Assembly: GCA_949289455.1 (NCBI GenBank)
Contig: CASEOA010000040.1
Location: 1-34,937, forward strand
Length of the DNA: 34,937 bases
Reading direction: 5' to 3'
Source of the DNA: an uncultured Eubacteriales bacterium
Lineage (GTDB): Bacteria > Bacillota > Clostridia > Oscillospirales > Oscillospiraceae
In this document: positions 7,952-16,159 of the stretch, piece after piece
Position numbering within the stretch: position 1 is the stretch's first letter
How the letters are laid out: the number at the start of each line of letters is the position of its first letter
Notes under the pieces: generated by a model
Told to the model about the DNA's origin: nothing
Databases searched by the model: none
What the model saw: the letters and a program-made list of their open reading frames with translations, nothing else
Made by a program: the position numbers and the translations under genes

Positions 7952-9340
7952 ATGCCCATATTAGGCGCCATTTTGACTCCCCACCCTCCGGTGCTGCTGC
8001 CCGAGGTGGGCAGGGGCCGGGAGCAGGAGATCGCCGCCACCGGCCGGGCCATGGAGGCGGCGGCGGAAGCGGTGGCCCGATGGAATCCCGACGTGCTTCT
8101 CCTGGCCTCCCCCCACACCGTTTTGTATCGGGACTACTTCCACATCGCTCCCGGCACAGGAGGGGTGGGGGACATGTCCGCCTTCGGCGCCCCCCAGGTG
8201 CGCATCGAGGCCCGGTATGACGTTGAGCTCCGGGAGGCCCTCATCCACAAGGCCCAGGTATCCGGTCTGGAAGCCGGCACCCTGGGGCAGCGGGACCCCG
8301 CCCTGGACCACGGGGTGCTCATCCCCCTCTACTACCTGCGCAAGGCGGGGGTGACCTGCCCCATCGTCCGCATGGGCCTGTCCGGCTTTTCTCCCCTGGA
8401 CCACTATAAACTGGGCCGGTGCGCGGCCCAGGCGGCGGAGGAGCTGGGCCGCCGGGCGGTGTTCGTGGCCAGCGGCGACCTGTCCCACAAGCTGAAGGCC
8501 GACGGCCCTTACGGCTTTGCCCCAGAGGGGCCGGTGTTCGACCAGCAGGTAACCCAGGCCATGGCCGACGGGGACTTCCTCTCCTTCCTCACCATGGACC
8601 CCGCCCTGTGCGAGGGGGCGGCGGAGTGCGGCCTGCGCTCCTTCCAGATGATGGCCGGGGCTCTGGACGGGCTGGCAGTGGCCCCCCGGCTTCTCAGCCA
8701 CGAGGGCACCTTCGGGGTGGGCTACGCCGTGGCCCTCTTCCCGGTGACCGGGCAGGACGGCAGCCGCCGCTTTGCCGCGCCCTATGCCCAGGCCAAGCGG
8801 GACCGGCTGGCGGAGCTCCGTGCCCGGGAGGACCCCTGGGTACGGCTGGCCCGGCTGTCCCTGGAGACCCGGGTCAACACCGGACAGGTGCTAGAGGCAC
8901 TGCCCGAGGGCCTGCCGGAGGCCCTGACCCGGCAGGCGGCTGGGGCCTTCGTCTCCCTTCACAAGGACGGCCAGCTCCGGGGCTGCATCGGCACCATCTC
9001 CCCCACCCGGGAGAATGTGGCCTGGGAGATCGTGGGCAACGCCGTGTCCGCCGGTCTCCGGGACCCCCGGTTCCCCGCTGTGTCCGCCGGCGAGCTGGCG
9101 GAGCTGGAGTACAGCGTGGACGTGCTGGGCGCGCCGGAGCCCATAGCCTCCCCCGACCAGCTGGACCCCAAACGGTACGGCATCATCGTCAGCTGCGGCC
9201 AGCGCCGGGGGCTGCTGCTGCCCGATCTGGAGGGGGTGGACACGGTGGAGCAGCAGATTGACATCGCCCGCCGGAAGGGGGGCATTTCCGCCGGCGATCC
9301 CTACCGGCTGGAGCGGTTCCAGGTGGTGCGGCACCGATGA
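7952..9340 (+). CDS. AmmeMemoRadiSam B-A fusion: MEMO-like dioxygenase-fold domain plus AMMECR1 domain (462 aa)
   Basis: Residues 1 to ~265 are the MEMO/class III extradiol-dioxygenase-like domain: LTPHPPVLLPEVG at the start, SPHTVLYRDYF (~52-62), DHGVLIPLYYL (~117-127), SGDLSHKLK (~174-182). The His residues in these segments correspond to the metal-site positions of that fold. Residues ~290-460 are an AMMECR1 domain with its signature LRGCIGT and ISPTREN, and the RRGLLLPDLEGVDT segment. In many genomes these are separate genes (TIGR04336 and TIGR04335); here they are one polypeptide. The radical SAM partner follows with an ATGA overlap. The biochemical role of the system in bacteria is not settled. 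Confidence 0.9.
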   Translation: MPILGAILTPHPPVLLPEVGRGREQEIAATGRAMEAAAEAVARWNPDVLLLASPHTVLYRDYFHIAPGTGGVGDMSAFGAPQVRIEARYDVELREALIHKAQVSGLEAGTLGQRDPALDHGVLIPLYYLRKAGVTCPIVRMGLSGFSPLDHYKLGRCAAQAAEELGRRAVFVASGDLSHKLKADGPYGFAPEGPVFDQQVTQAMADGDFLSFLTMDPALCEGAAECGLRSFQMMAGALDGLAVAPRLLSHEGTFGVGYAVALFPVTGQDGSRRFAAPYAQAKRDRLAELRAREDPWVRLARLSLETRVNTGQVLEALPEGLPEALTRQAAGAFVSLHKDGQLRGCIGTISPTRENVAWEIVGNAVSAGLRDPRFPAVSAGELAELEYSVDVLGAPEPIASPDQLDPKRYGIIVSCGQRRGLLLPDLEGVDTVEQQIDIARRKGGISAGDPYRLERFQVVRHR

Positions 9341-10161
9341 GCGTCACCTGTGAGCTGTGCTTCCACCGCTGCGCCCTGGCGGAGGGCCAGACCGGAGCCT
9401 GCTGGGCCAGGGCCAACCGGGGCGGGCAGATCGTGCCCCTGAACTACGGCAGACTCACCGCCCTGGCCCTGGACCCCATGGAGAAAAAGCCTCTGCGCCG
9501 GTTCCATCCCGGCAGCCTGGTGCTGTCGGCGGGCAGCTTCGGCTGCAACCTCCGCTGCCCCTTCTGCCAGAACGTCCAGATCGCCGGGGCGGGGGCGGAG
9601 TGCCTCGCCCGGCAGGTCTCCCCGGCGGAGCTGGTGGAGCAGGCCCTGGCCCTCCGCAACCGGGGCAATGTGGGCCTGGCCTACACCTACAACGAGCCCC
9701 TGGTGGGCTATGAATTTGTGCGGGACTGCGCCGCCCTGGCCCATGAGGCGGGGCTGGTCAACGTGCTGGTCACCAACGGCACCATCACCCCCCAGCCCTG
9801 GCAGGCCCTGCTGCCCCTCATCGACGGGGCCAACATCGACCTGAAGGGATTTACGGCGGAGTGGTACCGGAGGCTGGGGGGCGATCTGGAGGTGGTGAAG
9901 CACTCCATCGCCTTGGCCGCTGGGCGCTGCCACCTGGAGGTCACCACCCTCATCGTGCCGGGCGAAAACGACAGCGAAGGGGAGCTGGAGGCCCTGGCCC
10001 GGTGGCTGGCCTCGGTGGACCCCCAGATCCCCCTCCACATCACCCGTTTCTTCCCCCGCCACCGGATGGCCCATCTGTCCCCCACCCCGGTGGAGACCGT
10101 GTACCGGCTGGTGGAGGCGGCCCGGCAGCACCTGCGGTACGTCTACCCCGGCAACTGTTGA
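9337..10161 (+). CDS. amrS: AmmeMemoRadiSam-system radical SAM enzyme (274 aa)
   Basis: The cluster motif GCNLRCPFC gives Cys70, Cys74 and Cys77 (C-x3-C-x2-C), which bind the [4Fe-4S] that cleaves S-adenosylmethionine. A second N-terminal cysteine group, CELCFHRC at 5-12 plus Cys22, is typical of this subfamily (TIGR04337) and of PflA-like activases. YTYNEPL (~116-122), GANIDLKGF and HITRFFPRH are further family landmarks. It is slightly shorter than many members (~330 aa) but has no evident break. The start overlaps the stop of the fused A/B gene by four bases, so the enzyme and its presumed partner are made together. The substrate is unknown. Confidence 0.9.
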   Translation: MSVTCELCFHRCALAEGQTGACWARANRGGQIVPLNYGRLTALALDPMEKKPLRRFHPGSLVLSAGSFGCNLRCPFCQNVQIAGAGAECLARQVSPAELVEQALALRNRGNVGLAYTYNEPLVGYEFVRDCAALAHEAGLVNVLVTNGTITPQPWQALLPLIDGANIDLKGFTAEWYRRLGGDLEVVKHSIALAAGRCHLEVTTLIVPGENDSEGELEALARWLASVDPQIPLHITRFFPRHRMAHLSPTPVETVYRLVEAARQHLRYVYPGNC

Positions 10162-11920: not shown

Positions 11921-12853
11921 TCAGCCCCGGCACTTGGCCAGCAGGGCCTCCCACTTCTCGTCCACATAGTCCTGGGCGGCCTTCAGAGTCCACTCGTTGC
12001 CCGGCTGGAAGCAGTGCTTGAACCGGCCCTGGAGCTTCATGAACTCGGTGACGGGCAGCTTCTTTTTGGGCTCGTAGGACAGAATCCACTGTCCCTCCAC
12101 CACCTCGAAAAGAGGCCACACACAGGTCTCCACCGCCAGGCGGCACAGCTCAGGCAGCAGTTCCGGGGCGTACTGCCAGCCCCGGGGACAGGGGGTGAGC
12201 ACGTTGACAAAGACGGGACCAGGAGTATAAATTGCCCGGTGGGCTTTTTCGTGAAAATCCTTAAAGTTGCCCAAAAAGGTGGTCTGGGCTACATAGGGGA
12301 TGTGGTGGGCCGCCATGATCTCGGTCAGATCCTTCTTGTCCTGACCCTTGCCGGTGGAGGCGCTTCCCACCGGGGTGGTGGTGGCGCTGGCAAACCGGGG
12401 GGTGGAGGAGGAGCGCTGGATGCCGGTGTTCATGTAGGCCTCGTTGTCGTAGCAGAAGTACACCATGTCGTGGCCCCGCTCCATGGCCCCGGACAGGGAC
12501 TGGAAGCCGATGTCGTAGGTGCCCCCGTCCCCGCCGATGGTGAGAAATTTGTAGTTGTCCTGAATCTTCCCCTTCTTTTTCAGCGCACGGTAGGCCGCCT
12601 CCACGCCCCCGCAAGTGGCGGCGGCGTTTTCAAAGGCGGAGTGGATGTAGCTGTCCTCCCAGGCGGTATAGGGATAGAGGAAGGAACTGACCTCCAGGCA
12701 GCCGGTGGCGTTGCAGATGACGGCCTTATCCCCCTCGTCCAGGGCCCGGGTCATGGCCCGGCACACGATGCCAGCGCCGCACCCGGCGCACAGCCGGTGT
12801 CCGCCTACAAACCGCTCGGGCTTGGAGAGCTCTCTTTTGTGGTTGTATGCCAT
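11921..12853 (-). CDS. porB: Pyruvate-type 2-oxoacid:ferredoxin oxidoreductase, beta subunit (TPP-binding)
   Basis: The 310-residue subunit carries HRLCAGCGAGI near residue 20 and NATGCLEV near 50, which with a later Cys bind the proximal [4Fe-4S]. GDGGTYDIGFQ followed by CYDNEAYMNTG is the thiamine-diphosphate/Mg motif (GDG...N). The segment from NTGIQRSSSTP on matches four-subunit pyruvate enzymes of Thermotoga/archaeal type. The enzyme oxidatively decarboxylates a 2-oxoacid to acyl-CoA and reduces ferredoxin, or runs in reverse; it is cytoplasmic. The start is the ATG at 12853 behind AGGAGG, one base after the porA stop; an in-frame ATG 21 bases earlier lies inside porA. Substrate range is not certain: branched-chain or 2-oxobutyrate use is possible given the T-box upstream. 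Confidence 0.9.
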   Translation of the reverse strand: MAYNHKRELSKPERFVGGHRLCAGCGAGIVCRAMTRALDEGDKAVICNATGCLEVSSFLYPYTAWEDSYIHSAFENAAATCGGVEAAYRALKKKGKIQDNYKFLTIGGDGGTYDIGFQSLSGAMERGHDMVYFCYDNEAYMNTGIQRSSSTPRFASATTTPVGSASTGKGQDKKDLTEIMAAHHIPYVAQTTFLGNFKDFHEKAHRAIYTPGPVFVNVLTPCPRGWQYAPELLPELCRLAVETCVWPLFEVVEGQWILSYEPKKKLPVTEFMKLQGRFKHCFQPGNEWTLKAAQDYVDEKWEALLAKCRG

Positions 12854-12854
12854 C

Positions 12855-14054
12855 TCACAGCACCTCCTCAACATTGCTGCGCTGCCCCATGTGGAGGTAG
12901 CGAGGGCCGGTAATGCCGGTTTCCACCATCTTCAGCAGGTGGCGGTACACCCTTTCCACGTCCTCCACCCGGCAGTCCCGGCCCGCCAGGCCGTACACCA
13001 CGTCGATAAGCATGGGCCGGGTGGGCAGGTCGTAGCAGGCGGCGCAGGTCTCGGCAAAGAGGGGCCCGCCGCAGGCGGAGTTGCCCTCGCTCTTGTCCAT
13101 CACGGCCACTGCCTTTACATGGCAAAGGGCCGCCGCCAGCTCCTCCATGGGGAAGGGGCGGAACACCCGCAGCTTGATGAGGCCGGCCTTCACGCCCTGG
13201 GCCCGGAGCTGCCGGATGCAGGCCTTGGCGGTGCCGGCGGTGGAGCCGATGAGCACCAGGGCCACCTCTGCGTCCTCCATCTCATAGCACTCGAAAAAGC
13301 CGTACTTCCGGCCAAAGGTTTTTTCAAAGTCGGCGGCCACCTCCAGCACCACCTGCTTGGCGGCCTTCATGGCCTCGGCCTGCTGGACCTTGTGCTCCAT
13401 GCAGTAGGGGCAGGTGTCGTAGGGCCCCACCGCCAGGGGGTTTTCATGCTTGAGCAGATAGTTTTCCGGCCTGTACTCCCCCACGAACTTCTTGACGGCG
13501 GCGTCCTCCTCCAGGAGGATGTTCTCCACGGCGTGGGAGGTGATAAAGCCGTCCTGACAGATCATGATGGGCAGGCGGACCCGGGGGTCCTCCGAGATGC
13601 GCATGGCCTGGAGGTAGTTGTCATAGGCCTCCTGGTTGTTCTCGGCATAGATCTGGAGCCAGCCGGTGTCCCGGGCGCCCATGGAGTCGGAGTGGTCGTT
13701 GTTGATGTTGATGGGGCCGGTGAGGGCCCGGTTGACGCAAGCCAGGGTGATAGGCAGCCGGGCGGAGGCCGCCACATACAGCATCTCATACATAAAGGCC
13801 AGGCCGCAGGAGGAGGTGGCGGTAACCGCCCGCACCCCGGCGGCGGCGGCCCCCACACAGGTGGACATGGAGGAGTGCTCGCTCTCCACGGTGACGTACT
13901 CGGTGCTCACCTGGCCGTTGGCCACATACTGGGCAAAATACTGTGGAATCTCGGTGGAGGGGGTGATGGGGAAGGCGGCAAATACGTCGGGGTCGATCTG
14001 GCGCATGGCCCAGGCGATGGCCTCGTTGCCGCTGAGGCGTTCCCGGATACTCAT
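12855..14054 (-). CDS. porA: 2-oxoacid:ferredoxin oxidoreductase, alpha subunit
   Basis: The 399-residue protein has the PorA opening LSGNEAIAWAMRQ and AAFPITPSTEIPQYFAQY. TEYVTVESEHSSMSTCVGAAAAG is the pyrimidine-ring side of the thiamine site, with the conserved Glu-Ser-Glu-His. GLIKLRVFRPFP (~300-311) and AVMDKSEG (~328-335) belong to the transketolase-C-like domain, and CGGPLF follows. Length and order are those of the four-subunit enzyme. Its start lies directly against the porD stop, so porG-porD-porA-porB form one coupled minus-strand operon. A CPYC pair at mid-protein is unusual but not assigned a role. Confidence 0.9.
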   Translation of the reverse strand: MSIRERLSGNEAIAWAMRQIDPDVFAAFPITPSTEIPQYFAQYVANGQVSTEYVTVESEHSSMSTCVGAAAAGVRAVTATSSCGLAFMYEMLYVAASARLPITLACVNRALTGPININNDHSDSMGARDTGWLQIYAENNQEAYDNYLQAMRISEDPRVRLPIMICQDGFITSHAVENILLEEDAAVKKFVGEYRPENYLLKHENPLAVGPYDTCPYCMEHKVQQAEAMKAAKQVVLEVAADFEKTFGRKYGFFECYEMEDAEVALVLIGSTAGTAKACIRQLRAQGVKAGLIKLRVFRPFPMEELAAALCHVKAVAVMDKSEGNSACGGPLFAETCAACYDLPTRPMLIDVVYGLAGRDCRVEDVERVYRHLLKMVETGITGPRYLHMGQRSNVEEVL

Positions 14055-14360
14055 TTACCGCACCTCCTTTTCCATGTGGATGGCCTGGAAGGGGCACACC
14101 TTCCAGCAGATGCCGCAGCCCTTGCAGTGGTCCAGGTCAAATTCTCCCCGGCGCCCGTCGGTGACGGGAATGGAGGAGTCGGGACAGAAGGGAGCGCACA
14201 GCAGGCACTGCTTGCACTTGTCCTTCTCCCACACGGGCACGTTGGAGCGCCACTCGCCCGTCTTGACCAGCCGGGCGGTGCCCCCTTCGCAGATTTCCCC
14301 GCCGGGATTGATCTCCTGCCAGGGGATCTGTTCGTTGATATCCTTGGCCAAACGGCTCAT
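14055..14360 (-). CDS. porD: 2-oxoacid:ferredoxin oxidoreductase, delta subunit (2x[4Fe-4S] ferredoxin)
   Basis: A 101-residue ferredoxin-like subunit. CKQCLLCAPFCP and CKGCGICWKVCP are two complete C-x2-C-x2-C-x3-CP motifs for two [4Fe-4S] clusters, which carry electrons from the thiamine site to external ferredoxin. The N-terminal ~45 residues, with PGGEICEGGTARLVKTGEWR, are the standard PorD extension that docks on the other subunits. The start overlaps the porG stop (ATGA) and has GGAGG upstream; the stop abuts porA. No missing ligand is seen. Confidence 0.92.
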   Translation of the reverse strand: MSRLAKDINEQIPWQEINPGGEICEGGTARLVKTGEWRSNVPVWEKDKCKQCLLCAPFCPDSSIPVTDGRRGEFDLDHCKGCGICWKVCPFQAIHMEKEVR

Positions 14361-14938
14361 ACGCCGTGCACCTCCTTCATGGATTGGATGAGGCAGTTCA
14401 TATTCCCCTGGATCACCTGGGGCTTGGTGGCAAACTTATGCTGGAAGGATGCCTCCATATCGGCAATAAAGCGCCCCGTGTCCAGCACCCGGCTCACCTG
14501 GACGATGGCGGCCAGCATGGGGGTGTTGGGGAAGTAGCCCCCCAGGTGCTTCTCCGAGATAGTGCGGGCGTCGATGGTGCACACTTTTCCGGTGTACCCC
14601 CGCAGCAGGGGACGGATGTCCTCCGGGGACTGGGAGGTGTTCACCACGATGGCCCCCTCCGGGTCCAGCCCGGCGGTGACGTCCACGGTGGACAGAAGGG
14701 TCTCGTCCACCACCACCACATAGTTGGGGTGGTAGATGTTGGAGTGCACGGTACAGGGTTCATCGCTGATCCGGTTGTAGGCCGTGATGGGAGCTCCCAT
14801 ACGCTCCGGGCCATACTCCGGAAAGCCTTGAACATATTTGCCCGAGGCAAAAGCCGCGTCCGCCAACAGCAGGCAGGCGGTTTTGGCCCCCTGGCCCCCC
14901 CGCCCGTGCCAGCGGATTTCAGTCATGGTGCTGCTCAT
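14357..14938 (-). CDS. porG: 2-oxoacid:ferredoxin oxidoreductase, gamma subunit
   Basis: The 193-residue subunit begins MSSTMTEIRWHGRGGQGAKTA; the GRGGQG loop binds CoA and defines the gamma family. FPEYGPERMGAPITAYNRIS follows, and PNTPMLAAIVQVS near the C-terminus is also conserved. The first ATG (14938) is chosen because GGGAGG lies eight bases ahead; MTEIRW four codons in is the alternative. It is the first gene of porGDAB and follows a T-box leader, so expression of the whole oxidoreductase should respond to an uncharged tRNA. POR, VOR and KOR gamma subunits are hard to tell apart by eye. Confidence 0.9.
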   Translation of the reverse strand: MSSTMTEIRWHGRGGQGAKTACLLLADAAFASGKYVQGFPEYGPERMGAPITAYNRISDEPCTVHSNIYHPNYVVVVDETLLSTVDVTAGLDPEGAIVVNTSQSPEDIRPLLRGYTGKVCTIDARTISEKHLGGYFPNTPMLAAIVQVSRVLDTGRFIADMEASFQHKFATKPQVIQGNMNCLIQSMKEVHGV

Positions 14939-14959: not shown

Positions 14960-15206
14960 AAAAAAGGCGCTCATCCCGTAAACGGGACGAGCGCCGTAAA
15001 AGCACATCGCTGTACCACCCAGTTACGCGTACCACCATACGCTCCTCCGATAACGGGGAGGCCCGCCAGCGCCTACCGCGGCATGTGCCGTTTGGGGCTG
15101 GGACTCCGGAGTGATCTTCGGGCAGGCCGTACCGATACCGGCTTTCCACCAACCGCCGGCTCTCTGAAATCTTCCGTCAGGCCCTACTGTCTCCCTCATA
15201 GTCTTT
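14960..15206 (-). ncRNA. T-box riboswitch leader upstream of porGDAB, specifier AUC (Ile)
   Basis: Read on the minus strand, all T-box parts are present. The stem I base pairs GACU with AGUC (15203-15200, 15105-15102) through a kink-turn-like step. The specifier loop has AGUA (15188-15185) opposite GAAGAUCA (15119-15112), closed by GGGC/GCCC above and GGAG/CUCC below. The AG-bulge/distal region reads AGAGAGCCGG...GGUUGGUGGAAAGCCGG (15163-15138). A stem III-like hairpin follows, then the T-box AACUGGGUGGUACAGCG (15024-15008). A terminator pairs GGCGCUCGUCCCG with CGGGAUGAGCGCC and ends in UUUUUU (14995-14960). The antiterminator can form from AGCG/CGCU and GGG/CCC. The codon next to the conserved A and lower stem is AUC (15115-15113), and the bulge UGGU fits the A discriminator of tRNA-Ile. 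The 321-base gap contains no other gene. Confidence 0.92.
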
Positions 15207-15217
15207 CGCGCATTAAA

Positions 15218-15246
15218 ACGATAGATTGTTAAACATCATACTCCAA
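15218..15246 (-). promoter_or_regulatory. Probable promoter of the T-box/por transcript
   Basis: Minus strand TTGGAG (15246-15241), 17 bases, TATCGT (15223-15218), giving a start about seven bases before the T-box stem I. Hexamers are only fair matches. Confidence 0.4.
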
Positions 15247-15259
15247 ACACCGCCAAATG

Positions 15260-16159
15260 TCAAGCCCGGCCTGTGATAATCCAGGGGGCGGGCTCCTGGT
15301 GGAAGGTGTTCTTCCCGGACAGCTTGGACACGGCGATCTGGATCACCTCGGTCTCCCGGATGCCCAGGGACTCAAAGAGGTCGGGAATGGTGGCGGCGCA
15401 GCGGAAATCCAGGGTGTAGATCACAAATTCCATGTGGGGGTTGAGCCGCAGCAGACATTGCAGCTCCTGCTCCATGCTGGCGGAGGCCACCAGCATGGTG
15501 AGGCTGGGCACCGGCAGGCCCTTCATGGTCTCATCGTCCACGTGGTCGATGATGACGATGTTGTTCAGGCCGAACTGGTTGGCGTTCTCCTCCATGGTGC
15601 GCCGGTCGGCGCCGCTGTACTCCACGGCGATGACGGTACCCTCCCCGGCGATGATGGCGGCCTCCACGGCGATGGAGGCCCCGCTGATGACGCACAGGTT
15701 GTCGGTCAGGTCTGCGTGCATCTTGTTGAGGATCACCGAGCGGATCTCGCTGCCCACATAGTGGATAGACCCCCGGGAGAAGTGGGAGTTGTCCATGCCG
15801 ATTTTATAGGTGGAGCGGGCGTTGGGGTTGAGAATGAGCATCCCCGCCGAGGCGTTGATGCCCCGGTTGATCATGTCCTTCAGGGGCTTGTGGAGGATGG
15901 GGCCGGAGGGGTCGGAGCCCTCATTATACCACACCTCGCACTCCCCCAGACCGGCATCCCACATGCGGTAAAAGATATCGGCGTGGCCCGCCTCGGTAAA
16001 CACCAACACCGCCCGGTGGGACTCCACCATGGGGATCAGGTTCTTATTCTTTCGGGTGATATCCAGAATTTTTACCTTTTCCAGGTCCACGTCCATGTTC
16101 TGTGCAAAATATTGCAGCCAGGACAGGATGTTGGCGTTGCTGAACAGTCTCTCTTCCAT
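15260..16159 (-). CDS. CbiE/CbiT-like (precorrin methyltransferase-like) protein, divergent and outside any cobalamin cluster
   Basis: The 299-residue frame from the ATG at 16159 (behind GGGAGGG) has a C-terminal half laid out like CbiT/CobL: an entry strand (GSIHYVGSEIRSVIL), a Rossmann core (CVISGASIAVEAAII), the acidic strand TVIAVEYS, ANQFGLNNIVIID, and the closing PWIITGR. The SAM motif I, normally DIGAGTG, is ISGASIA, so cofactor binding is doubtful. The N-terminal ~130 residues resemble a shortened CbiE domain (NLIPMVE, then FTEAGHADIFYRM). CbiE/T enzymes methylate and decarboxylate precorrin rings in vitamin B12 synthesis, but no other cobalamin gene is nearby. An alternative is an unrelated SAM-fold protein. 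It is a single-gene unit between degV and the por T-box. Confidence 0.55.
   Translation of the reverse strand: MEERLFSNANILSWLQYFAQNMDVDLEKVKILDITRKNKNLIPMVESHRAVLVFTEAGHADIFYRMWDAGLGECEVWYNEGSDPSGPILHKPLKDMINRGINASAGMLILNPNARSTYKIGMDNSHFSRGSIHYVGSEIRSVILNKMHADLTDNLCVISGASIAVEAAIIAGEGTVIAVEYSGADRRTMEENANQFGLNNIVIIDHVDDETMKGLPVPSLTMLVASASMEQELQCLLRLNPHMEFVIYTLDFRCAATIPDLFESLGIRETEVIQIAVSKLSGKNTFHQEPAPWIITGRA

Follow-up and report, generated by a model that had tools for sequence, protein, structure and literature searches.

The porGDAB operon of this uncultured Eubacteriales bacterium stands behind an isoleucine-type T-box, and we hold with moderate confidence that it encodes a tRNA-Ile-gated enzyme that would run reductively, most likely converting propionyl-CoA to 2-oxobutyrate for isoleucine synthesis. 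An enzyme usually read as part of central carbon metabolism is thus found under an RNA switch for isoleucine shortage, and the same arrangement occurs in many relatives. Judged by its sequence, the por leader is a real, conserved, isoleucine-specific T-box. The window, a stretch of 34,937 nucleotides, lies in contig C40 of a 2.25-Mb assembly that is 83.9% complete. Its relevant features, all on the minus strand, are as follows.

15260..16159, minus strand: gene X (299 aa), located upstream of the leader and sharing its strand; CbiE-CbiT-like, SAM loop degenerate
15235..15263, minus strand: sigma-70-like promoter TTGACA-17-TATGAT (11 of 12 consensus matches), which overlaps gene X at its 3' end
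14980..15208, minus strand: complete T-box leader, stem I to antiterminator (RF00230, 94.1 bits)
15113..15115, minus strand: specifier AUC (Ile), in the specifier loop, with GAA (15119–15117) before it
15014..15017, minus strand: T-box bulge UGGU, fitting the ACCA of uncharged tRNA-Ile (cmscan alignment; tRNA end taken from relative G222)
14966..14995, minus strand: the leader's intrinsic terminator, a 13-pair stem followed by a T tract (folding and sequence read)
14357..14938, minus strand: porG, gamma subunit, 193 aa (TIGR02175, 203.3 bits; cut-off 81.1)
14055..14360, minus strand: porD, delta subunit with 4Fe-4S domains, 101 aa (TIGR02179, 91.3 bits; cut-off 60.05)
12855..14054, minus strand: porA, alpha subunit, 399 aa (POR_N, 239.5 bits)
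11921..12853, minus strand: porB, TPP subunit (TPP_enzyme_C; PorB model 354.2 bits, under its cut-off of 405)

The initial annotation had described a complete T-box in front of porGDAB, and the Infernal search bore this out: cmscan matched RF00230 over its full length (model positions 1–219) at 15208–14980 with E = 1.3e-19, the 94.1 bits barely clearing the gathering score of 93. The antiterminator positions were matched by the model and the terminator is also present; competition between the two is predicted. The terminator stretch folded at −33.2 kcal/mol, compared with −14.7 ± 2.6 in shuffled sequences (z = −7.0). AUC was read as the specifier at 15115–15113 and UGGU as the bulge at 15017–15014, both of which had been assigned to tRNA-Ile. 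The alternative specifier frames GAU and UCA were ruled out because AUC occupies the model position and is invariant, the base preceding it being variable. In relative G222, a tRNA-Ile(GAU) carries discriminator A and CCA, and the resulting ACCA end matches the UGGU bulge; no tRNA-Ile was seen among the 15 of 31 tRNA matches read in the bacterium's own assembly (84% complete). Promoter-like sites in the region numbered two, against 1.0 ± 1.2 expected, which is not significant alone.

The leader is conserved together with the operon. The PorA protein of the window was found at 93–100% identity in 4 of 20 same-genus genomes (its own counted), and PorA at E ≤ 1e-100 was detected in 40 of 300 family genomes, representing 22 of 106 genera. 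Rfam identified the leader in 28 of the 32 por loci obtained from the same-genus and family searches (the window, L022–L024, and L070–L097), which answers the earlier suggestion to look for the same leader before related por operons, and all 28 read AUC. The 27 homologous leaders each stand directly upstream of porG and scored 62.5–92.9 bits (all below the cut-off of 93; E = 3e-11 to 5e-19). Two of the loci missed by Rfam (L024 and L086) are truncated by contig ends, with the 3' half of the leader retained in L024, and no leader was found in L072 (G093) or L076 (G253), where porG lies immediately behind gene X. In a profile scan of 117 por loci (80 named loci, the best 80 of 586, with 36 family loci and the window), the leader was present in 51 and absent from 62 among the matches listed, the remaining 4 being undetermined. 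This profile was built from 42 leaders, partly por leaders, and therefore favours por; only the count from Rfam is independent of it. The specifier was AUC in 51 of 51 profile-found leaders among the matches listed, so that a different specifier in homologous leaders, which the initial annotation had named as a refuting result, turned up in neither scan, and the AUC is not a chance reading of these sequences.

Among the matches listed, the PorA rows comprised 115 distinct sequences, with 49 distinct among the 51 T-box rows, and in the FastTree phylogeny all 51 fell within one clade of 68 rows (SH-like support 98). The 49 rows outside this clade were 45 without a leader and 4 undetermined, again among the matches listed. 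The carriers include the named strains Butyricicoccus pullicaecorum ET57 (L200) and Agathobaculum desmolans ATCC 43058 (L204), as well as a Syntrophomonas (L211), a Gelria (L221), and a Desulfoscipio geothermicus metagenome-assembled genome (L226). Rfam confirmed the leader in all four of the named loci scanned (L204, L211, L221, and L226).

In terms of enzyme type, the gamma, ferredoxin, POR_N, and TPP domains are all present, which identifies a four-subunit 2-oxoacid:ferredoxin oxidoreductase, and the gamma and delta subunits belong to the pyruvate/2-ketoisovalerate subfamily according to NCBIfam (TIGR02175 and TIGR02179, both passed). The start of porB was placed at the conserved MAYNHK, the open frame beginning at 12874. 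The window enzyme resembles PorGDAB and Vor enzymes in its G-D-A-B gene order, in the PITPST motif and R109 kept in alpha, and in the TPP domain of beta. It differs from them in reaching none of the equivalog cut-offs, neither those for pyruvate synthase (NF040682, NF008819, and NF040683; 464.5/550, 354.2/405, and 174.9/270 bits, given here and below as score/cut-off) nor, for any subunit in the window, those for Vor, the 2-oxoisovalerate enzyme. The best NCBIfam model for porA was PorA_Arch (464.5 bits, under its cut-off of 550), and the POR-type scores exceeded the Vor-type scores for both alpha (464.5 versus 323.8 bits) and beta (354.2 versus 282.8 bits). The best-scoring solved structure was also a Por, 9bt4. 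Oxalate is an unlikely substrate, because oxalate oxidoreductase has Arg in place of the Thr of PITPST found in the window alpha subunit. The stretch after R109, which we take to line the substrate pocket in PorA, reads PININNDHSD in the window and in 40 of the 51 T-box rows (slightly changed in the others), compared with PINIWNDHQD in 9bt4. An argument from this pocket motif was dropped: it is common to T-box and T-box-free PorA rows and therefore cannot explain the T-box.

The link to isoleucine synthesis comes from gene neighbourhoods and from other leaders. In four T-box-free loci, por genes are arranged with ilv genes on one strand: ilvB-ilvN-ilvB-ilvC-ilvD-unknown-porGDAB in L164 (G100), porGDAB-ilvB-ilvN-ilvN in L167 (the second copy of G289), ilvA (threonine ammonia-lyase)-SstT-like transporter-Rid-porGDAB in L153 (G269), and ilvD preceding porG in L233. 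The ilvB, ilvN, ilvC, ilvD, ilvA, and Rid calls in these loci pass curated cut-offs; the SstT-like call fails (77/308 bits). L164, L167, and L153 form a T-box-free sister group, L233 lies further off, and none is inside the T-box clade. Of the 80 named loci (the best 80 of 586), just two (L233 and L241) had a match to a reference ilv gene inside roughly 9 kb. When other leaders were read (16 in the bacterium's own genome and 30 of 47 in G222, G149, and G109), AUC was found before ileS (G222 and G109), ilvA (G149; 474.9/378.75 bits), and por (G222 and G109). On this evidence, the porGDAB operon very probably belongs to isoleucine synthesis.

The enzyme does not appear to be the sole source of the precursor. 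The ilvC gene was present in 38 of 44 genomes (25 of the 29 genomes with por and 13 of the 15 without), and ilvA scored above its cut-off in the same number (26 of the 29 with por and 12 of the 15 without), including the bacterium's own assembly; ilvC gave no match in that assembly or in G013, both less than 85% complete. Citramalate synthase exceeded its cut-off of 450 in 1 of 44 genomes, and nine more had full-length matches below it (215–234 bits). We rejected the view that por makes up for an absent supply of 2-oxobutyrate, because ilvA is equally present in carriers and non-carriers and leaves no gap that por must fill; por would instead be an additional route to isoleucine beside the threonine route. 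The part of the initial annotation that tied por to isoleucine is supported by the ilv clusters and the AUC leaders on ileS and ilvA; a reading of por as the isoleucine route is weakened. An uncharacterised protein of about 435 aa was also seen adjoining ilv genes (L181:9723-11033 and L164:9857-11164), where it sits just ahead of the isoleucine T-box ilvA (G149) or of porGDAB (G100); the L164 copy had no NCBIfam match at E = 1e-20.

The mechanism that we propose is as follows. When isoleucine is short, uncharged tRNA-Ile(GAU) would pair with the leader both at its AUC specifier and at its UGGU bulge, so that the antiterminator would form and transcription would continue into porGDAB; with charged tRNA, the terminator would stay and porGDAB would remain off. 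The enzyme would then work reductively, most likely combining reduced ferredoxin, CO2, and propionyl-CoA to give 2-oxobutyrate, which would enter isoleucine via acetohydroxy-acid synthase and the other ilv enzymes, alongside the threonine route. We take EC 1.2.7.2 to be the proposed propionyl-CoA/2-oxobutyrate reaction. The reductive direction is probable, and we infer it from the logic of the T-box, which turns the genes on at isoleucine shortage. On a narrow balance of probability, 2-oxobutyrate is our best guess for the product, favoured by the POR-type scores, the ilvA-Rid-por cluster, the isoleucine-only specifier, and the described propionate route, in which anaerobes reductively carboxylate propionyl-CoA to 2-ketobutyrate (Buchanan 1969, Monticello 1984, and Eikmanns 1983, as cited in a passage of PMC7476758). 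Formation of propionyl-CoA from methylmalonyl-CoA was rejected, since methylmalonyl-CoA mutase was found in only one of the eight por carriers searched and not in the bacterium's own genome. CoA-transferase-like genes were present in all eight, with the butyryl-CoA:acetate cut-off passed in four (the bacterium's own genome not among them). Given these two counts, outside acids are the likelier source of either candidate acyl-CoA, and propionyl-CoA would probably derive from outside propionate.

The acyl-CoA could instead be 2-methylbutyryl-CoA, carboxylated directly to 3-methyl-2-oxovalerate, which is one transamination from isoleucine and would by-pass the ilv enzymes. The isoleucine-only specifier suits this direct route, and rumen anaerobes form isoleucine from 2-methylbutyrate (Robinson and Allison 1969, as cited in a passage of PMC7356843). 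There is a parallel for leucine in L221: a leader of 125.4 bits, its specifier read as CUC (Leu), is followed by a Vor-like operon and by a gene resembling butyryl-CoA:acetate CoA-transferase (554/674.8 bits), the whole at L221:804-5633 lying directly ahead of the isoleucine T-box por and X. The bacterium's own genome offers an aromatic version, in which a Phe T-box precedes iorA, iorB, a PaaK-like ligase, an ACT-like protein, and an aminotransferase. However, the isoleucine enzyme is POR-like, and the L221 leucine operon is a separate enzyme, 33–36% identical to por, with a Vor-like beta subunit (334 bits versus 308 for PorB) and an alpha subunit scoring higher as PorA (372 bits) than as Vor (345 bits). 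The ilvA-Rid-por and ilvBNCD-por clusters also suit 2-oxobutyrate better than 3-methyl-2-oxovalerate. We therefore regard the direct route as unlikely. Of the two products offered in the initial annotation, the context leans towards 2-oxobutyrate.

An ordinary pyruvate synthase feeding acetohydroxy-acid synthase, its supply merely tuned by the isoleucine T-box, is less likely still. The top structure (9bt4) and the top models (PorA and PorB) are those of pyruvate enzymes, and the ilvBN neighbours consume pyruvate too, but pyruvate is also needed for valine and leucine, and yet 51 of 51 leaders among the matches listed read isoleucine; moreover, a separate PFOR-type gene already exists in the bacterium's own genome and in G005. 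Oxidative running, from 2-oxobutyrate or a branched 2-oxoacid to the acyl-CoA, appears very improbable. L153, with its threonine ammonia-lyase, SstT-like transporter, Rid protein, and por, resembles a threonine-breakdown cluster and could equally be read as a threonine-fermentation cluster run oxidatively, but the T-box turns the genes on at isoleucine shortage, when breaking down an isoleucine precursor would be counterproductive. That the leader is a decayed or chance T-box with no regulatory role is hardly credible: although its score is just past the gathering cut-off, the remaining por leaders score beneath it, and clade members G093 and G253 have nothing leader-like between X and porG, the position, AUC, UGGU, and terminator are retained across dozens of genomes. 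The core of the initial annotation, a tRNA-Ile-gated, ferredoxin-dependent 2-oxoacid synthase for isoleucine, is supported by the sequence comparisons; gene X and the Phe and Tyr T-box parallels were missing from it, and its interpretation is borne out in part.

The bacterium's own genome contains 16 T-box matches at E ≤ 0.001, five of them above the cut-off. Twelve precede valS, tyrS, leuA, metQ, trpE, trpB, cysE, aspS, alaS, pheS, hisZ/hisS, and thrS, as assigned by eye from the translated downstream frames. The other four are the por leader, an AUC leader that follows a divIVA-like gene, the usual place of ileS, where the contig is cut off, and two on contig C16. One of these last two, a Tyr-type leader (UAC), precedes genes for an acyl-CoA ligase and a sodium/solute symporter; the other is of Phe type (UUC) and is followed by iorA (TIGR03336, 700/650.9 bits), iorB (279.8/230 bits), the PaaK-like ligase (503.8/646.3 bits, under the cut-off), the ACT-like protein (identified by eye, NCBIfam giving nothing at E = 1e-10), and the aminotransferase. 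In the corresponding stretch L051 (G000:C16:22000-37000), the two T-boxes lie at about 6684–6445 and 10434–10198 on the minus strand. The C16 genes have the look of a pathway under T-box control that makes phenylalanine and tyrosine from aryl acids. G109 has iorA behind a Phe leader and the ligase behind a Tyr leader, and in G149, a Phe leader stands on a paaK-like gene. The second, T-box-free pyruvate oxidoreductase whose presence the initial annotation had proposed to check was found as a separate PFOR on C37 (TIGR02176, 1037/911 bits over 617 residues, the fragment ending at the contig edge). A VorB-type enzyme on C5 (440.5/399 bits) adjoins a phosphate butyryltransferase-like gene (327.1/399 bits) and a butyrate kinase (459.4/289.1 bits). 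The own-genome scan gave no T-box match before either the PFOR or the VorB-type enzyme.

Gene X, whose start was set at the conserved Met (its open frame extends back to 16246), is, on the evidence of gene neighbourhoods, a conserved partner of the T-box por clade. It was found in 38 of 109 clustered por loci, where it follows porB, stands ahead of the leader, or immediately precedes porG, and the retrieved stretch contained it in 41 of 117 loci, all 41 inside the T-box clade, among the matches listed. Searches of the 300 family genomes gave 42 matches at E ≤ 1e-20, of which 10 at 25–30% identity were dropped as likely true CbiE/CbiT. X was thus assigned to 32 genomes (one as a contig-end fragment), and 30 of these also have por, compared with about 4 expected under independence when kinship is ignored (por in 40 genomes). 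In G035, which has X without por by the search, X, an AUC leader, and porG were seen at a contig end. Ten por genomes lack X, and in five of them (G027, G193, G281, G100, and G269) por lies outside the T-box clade. By profile, no T-box preceded X away from por in the stretches L183–L193 and L195. The neighbour families other than X (up to 19 of 109 loci) were scattered in position; one family of seven loci was at −3 on the opposite strand in five.

The AlphaFold model of X has a mean pLDDT of 80.9 and a pTM of 0.55. Its C-terminal part has the CbiT fold, as in the precorrin-6 methyltransferases CbiT and CbiET (CobL), and the best Foldseek matches were CbiT chains (E = 4.2e-13; against 3e05, TM-score 0.79–0.80 by target and 0.51–0.52 by query). 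X differs from these enzymes in its tie to por, in falling below the NCBIfam CbiT cut-off (30.4 bits; cut-off 78.3), and in its SAM loop. True CbiT presumably has a glycine-rich SAM loop at the stretch that reads ISGASIAVE in the window X, and, judged against that motif, the loop is degenerate in 23 of 23 aligned sequences. X might act in the module as a regulator, a maturation factor, or a catalyst of some step not yet described, perhaps one that acts on the 2-oxo acid. It is a tentative and rather doubtful proposal that anaerobic Bacillota possess, in porGDAB and X, a dedicated tRNA-Ile-gated, CO2-fixing isoleucine module whose essential fifth component would be X, a cobalamin-type methyltransferase fold put to a new use. 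The association with por would also draw X, a conserved protein, into isoleucine metabolism.

The por leader has all the tested hallmarks of an isoleucine-type transcriptional T-box (RF00230), including AUC, UGGU, and the terminator, and the related ileS and ilvA leaders also read AUC; what differs is the target, a 2-oxoacid:ferredoxin oxidoreductase. The words "ferredoxin" and "oxidoreductase" are absent from the main text of the T-box and riboswitch surveys PMC2494555, PMC7778990, and PMC3766115, and the T-box discussed in the relevant portion of a Clostridium phytofermentans transcription-start study is on trp. A title-level literature search gave no paper pairing a T-box with a ferredoxin oxidoreductase or reductive carboxylation, and prior publication is possible. 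The likeness to the 2-oxobutyrate synthase activity of Buchanan (1969, as cited in the same passage of PMC7476758) would lie in the proposed reaction only, which is drawn from context, and a title-level search of the enzyme names gave no paper on a gene for it. The own-genome indolepyruvate:ferredoxin oxidoreductase and phenylacetate-CoA ligase are comparable in standing under a Phe (UUC) T-box with an aminotransferase behind, and they differ from por in enzyme family and in amino acid, leading from an aryl acid to an amino acid. The Phe (iorA) and Leu (Vor-like, L221) T-boxes on these sister enzymes follow the same logic as the isoleucine T-box on por. As far as seen in print, this widens the T-box target range to 2-oxoacid:ferredoxin oxidoreductases for isoleucine, leucine, and phenylalanine, with the reductive direction that we infer for them. 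In many gut and syntrophic anaerobes, the roles of "pyruvate synthase" genes are guessed from the name; the sensed tRNA is an independent clue to function and yields candidate genes for building amino acids out of fermentation acids, a capacity that rumen work had already described in the 1960s (as cited in a passage of PMC7356843).

Two further observations were made by eye elsewhere in the window. Two genes at 7952–10161 resemble a Memo/AMMECR1 fusion and a radical-SAM partner, and positions 3–254, at the contig edge, hold the end of an IS3-type transposase.
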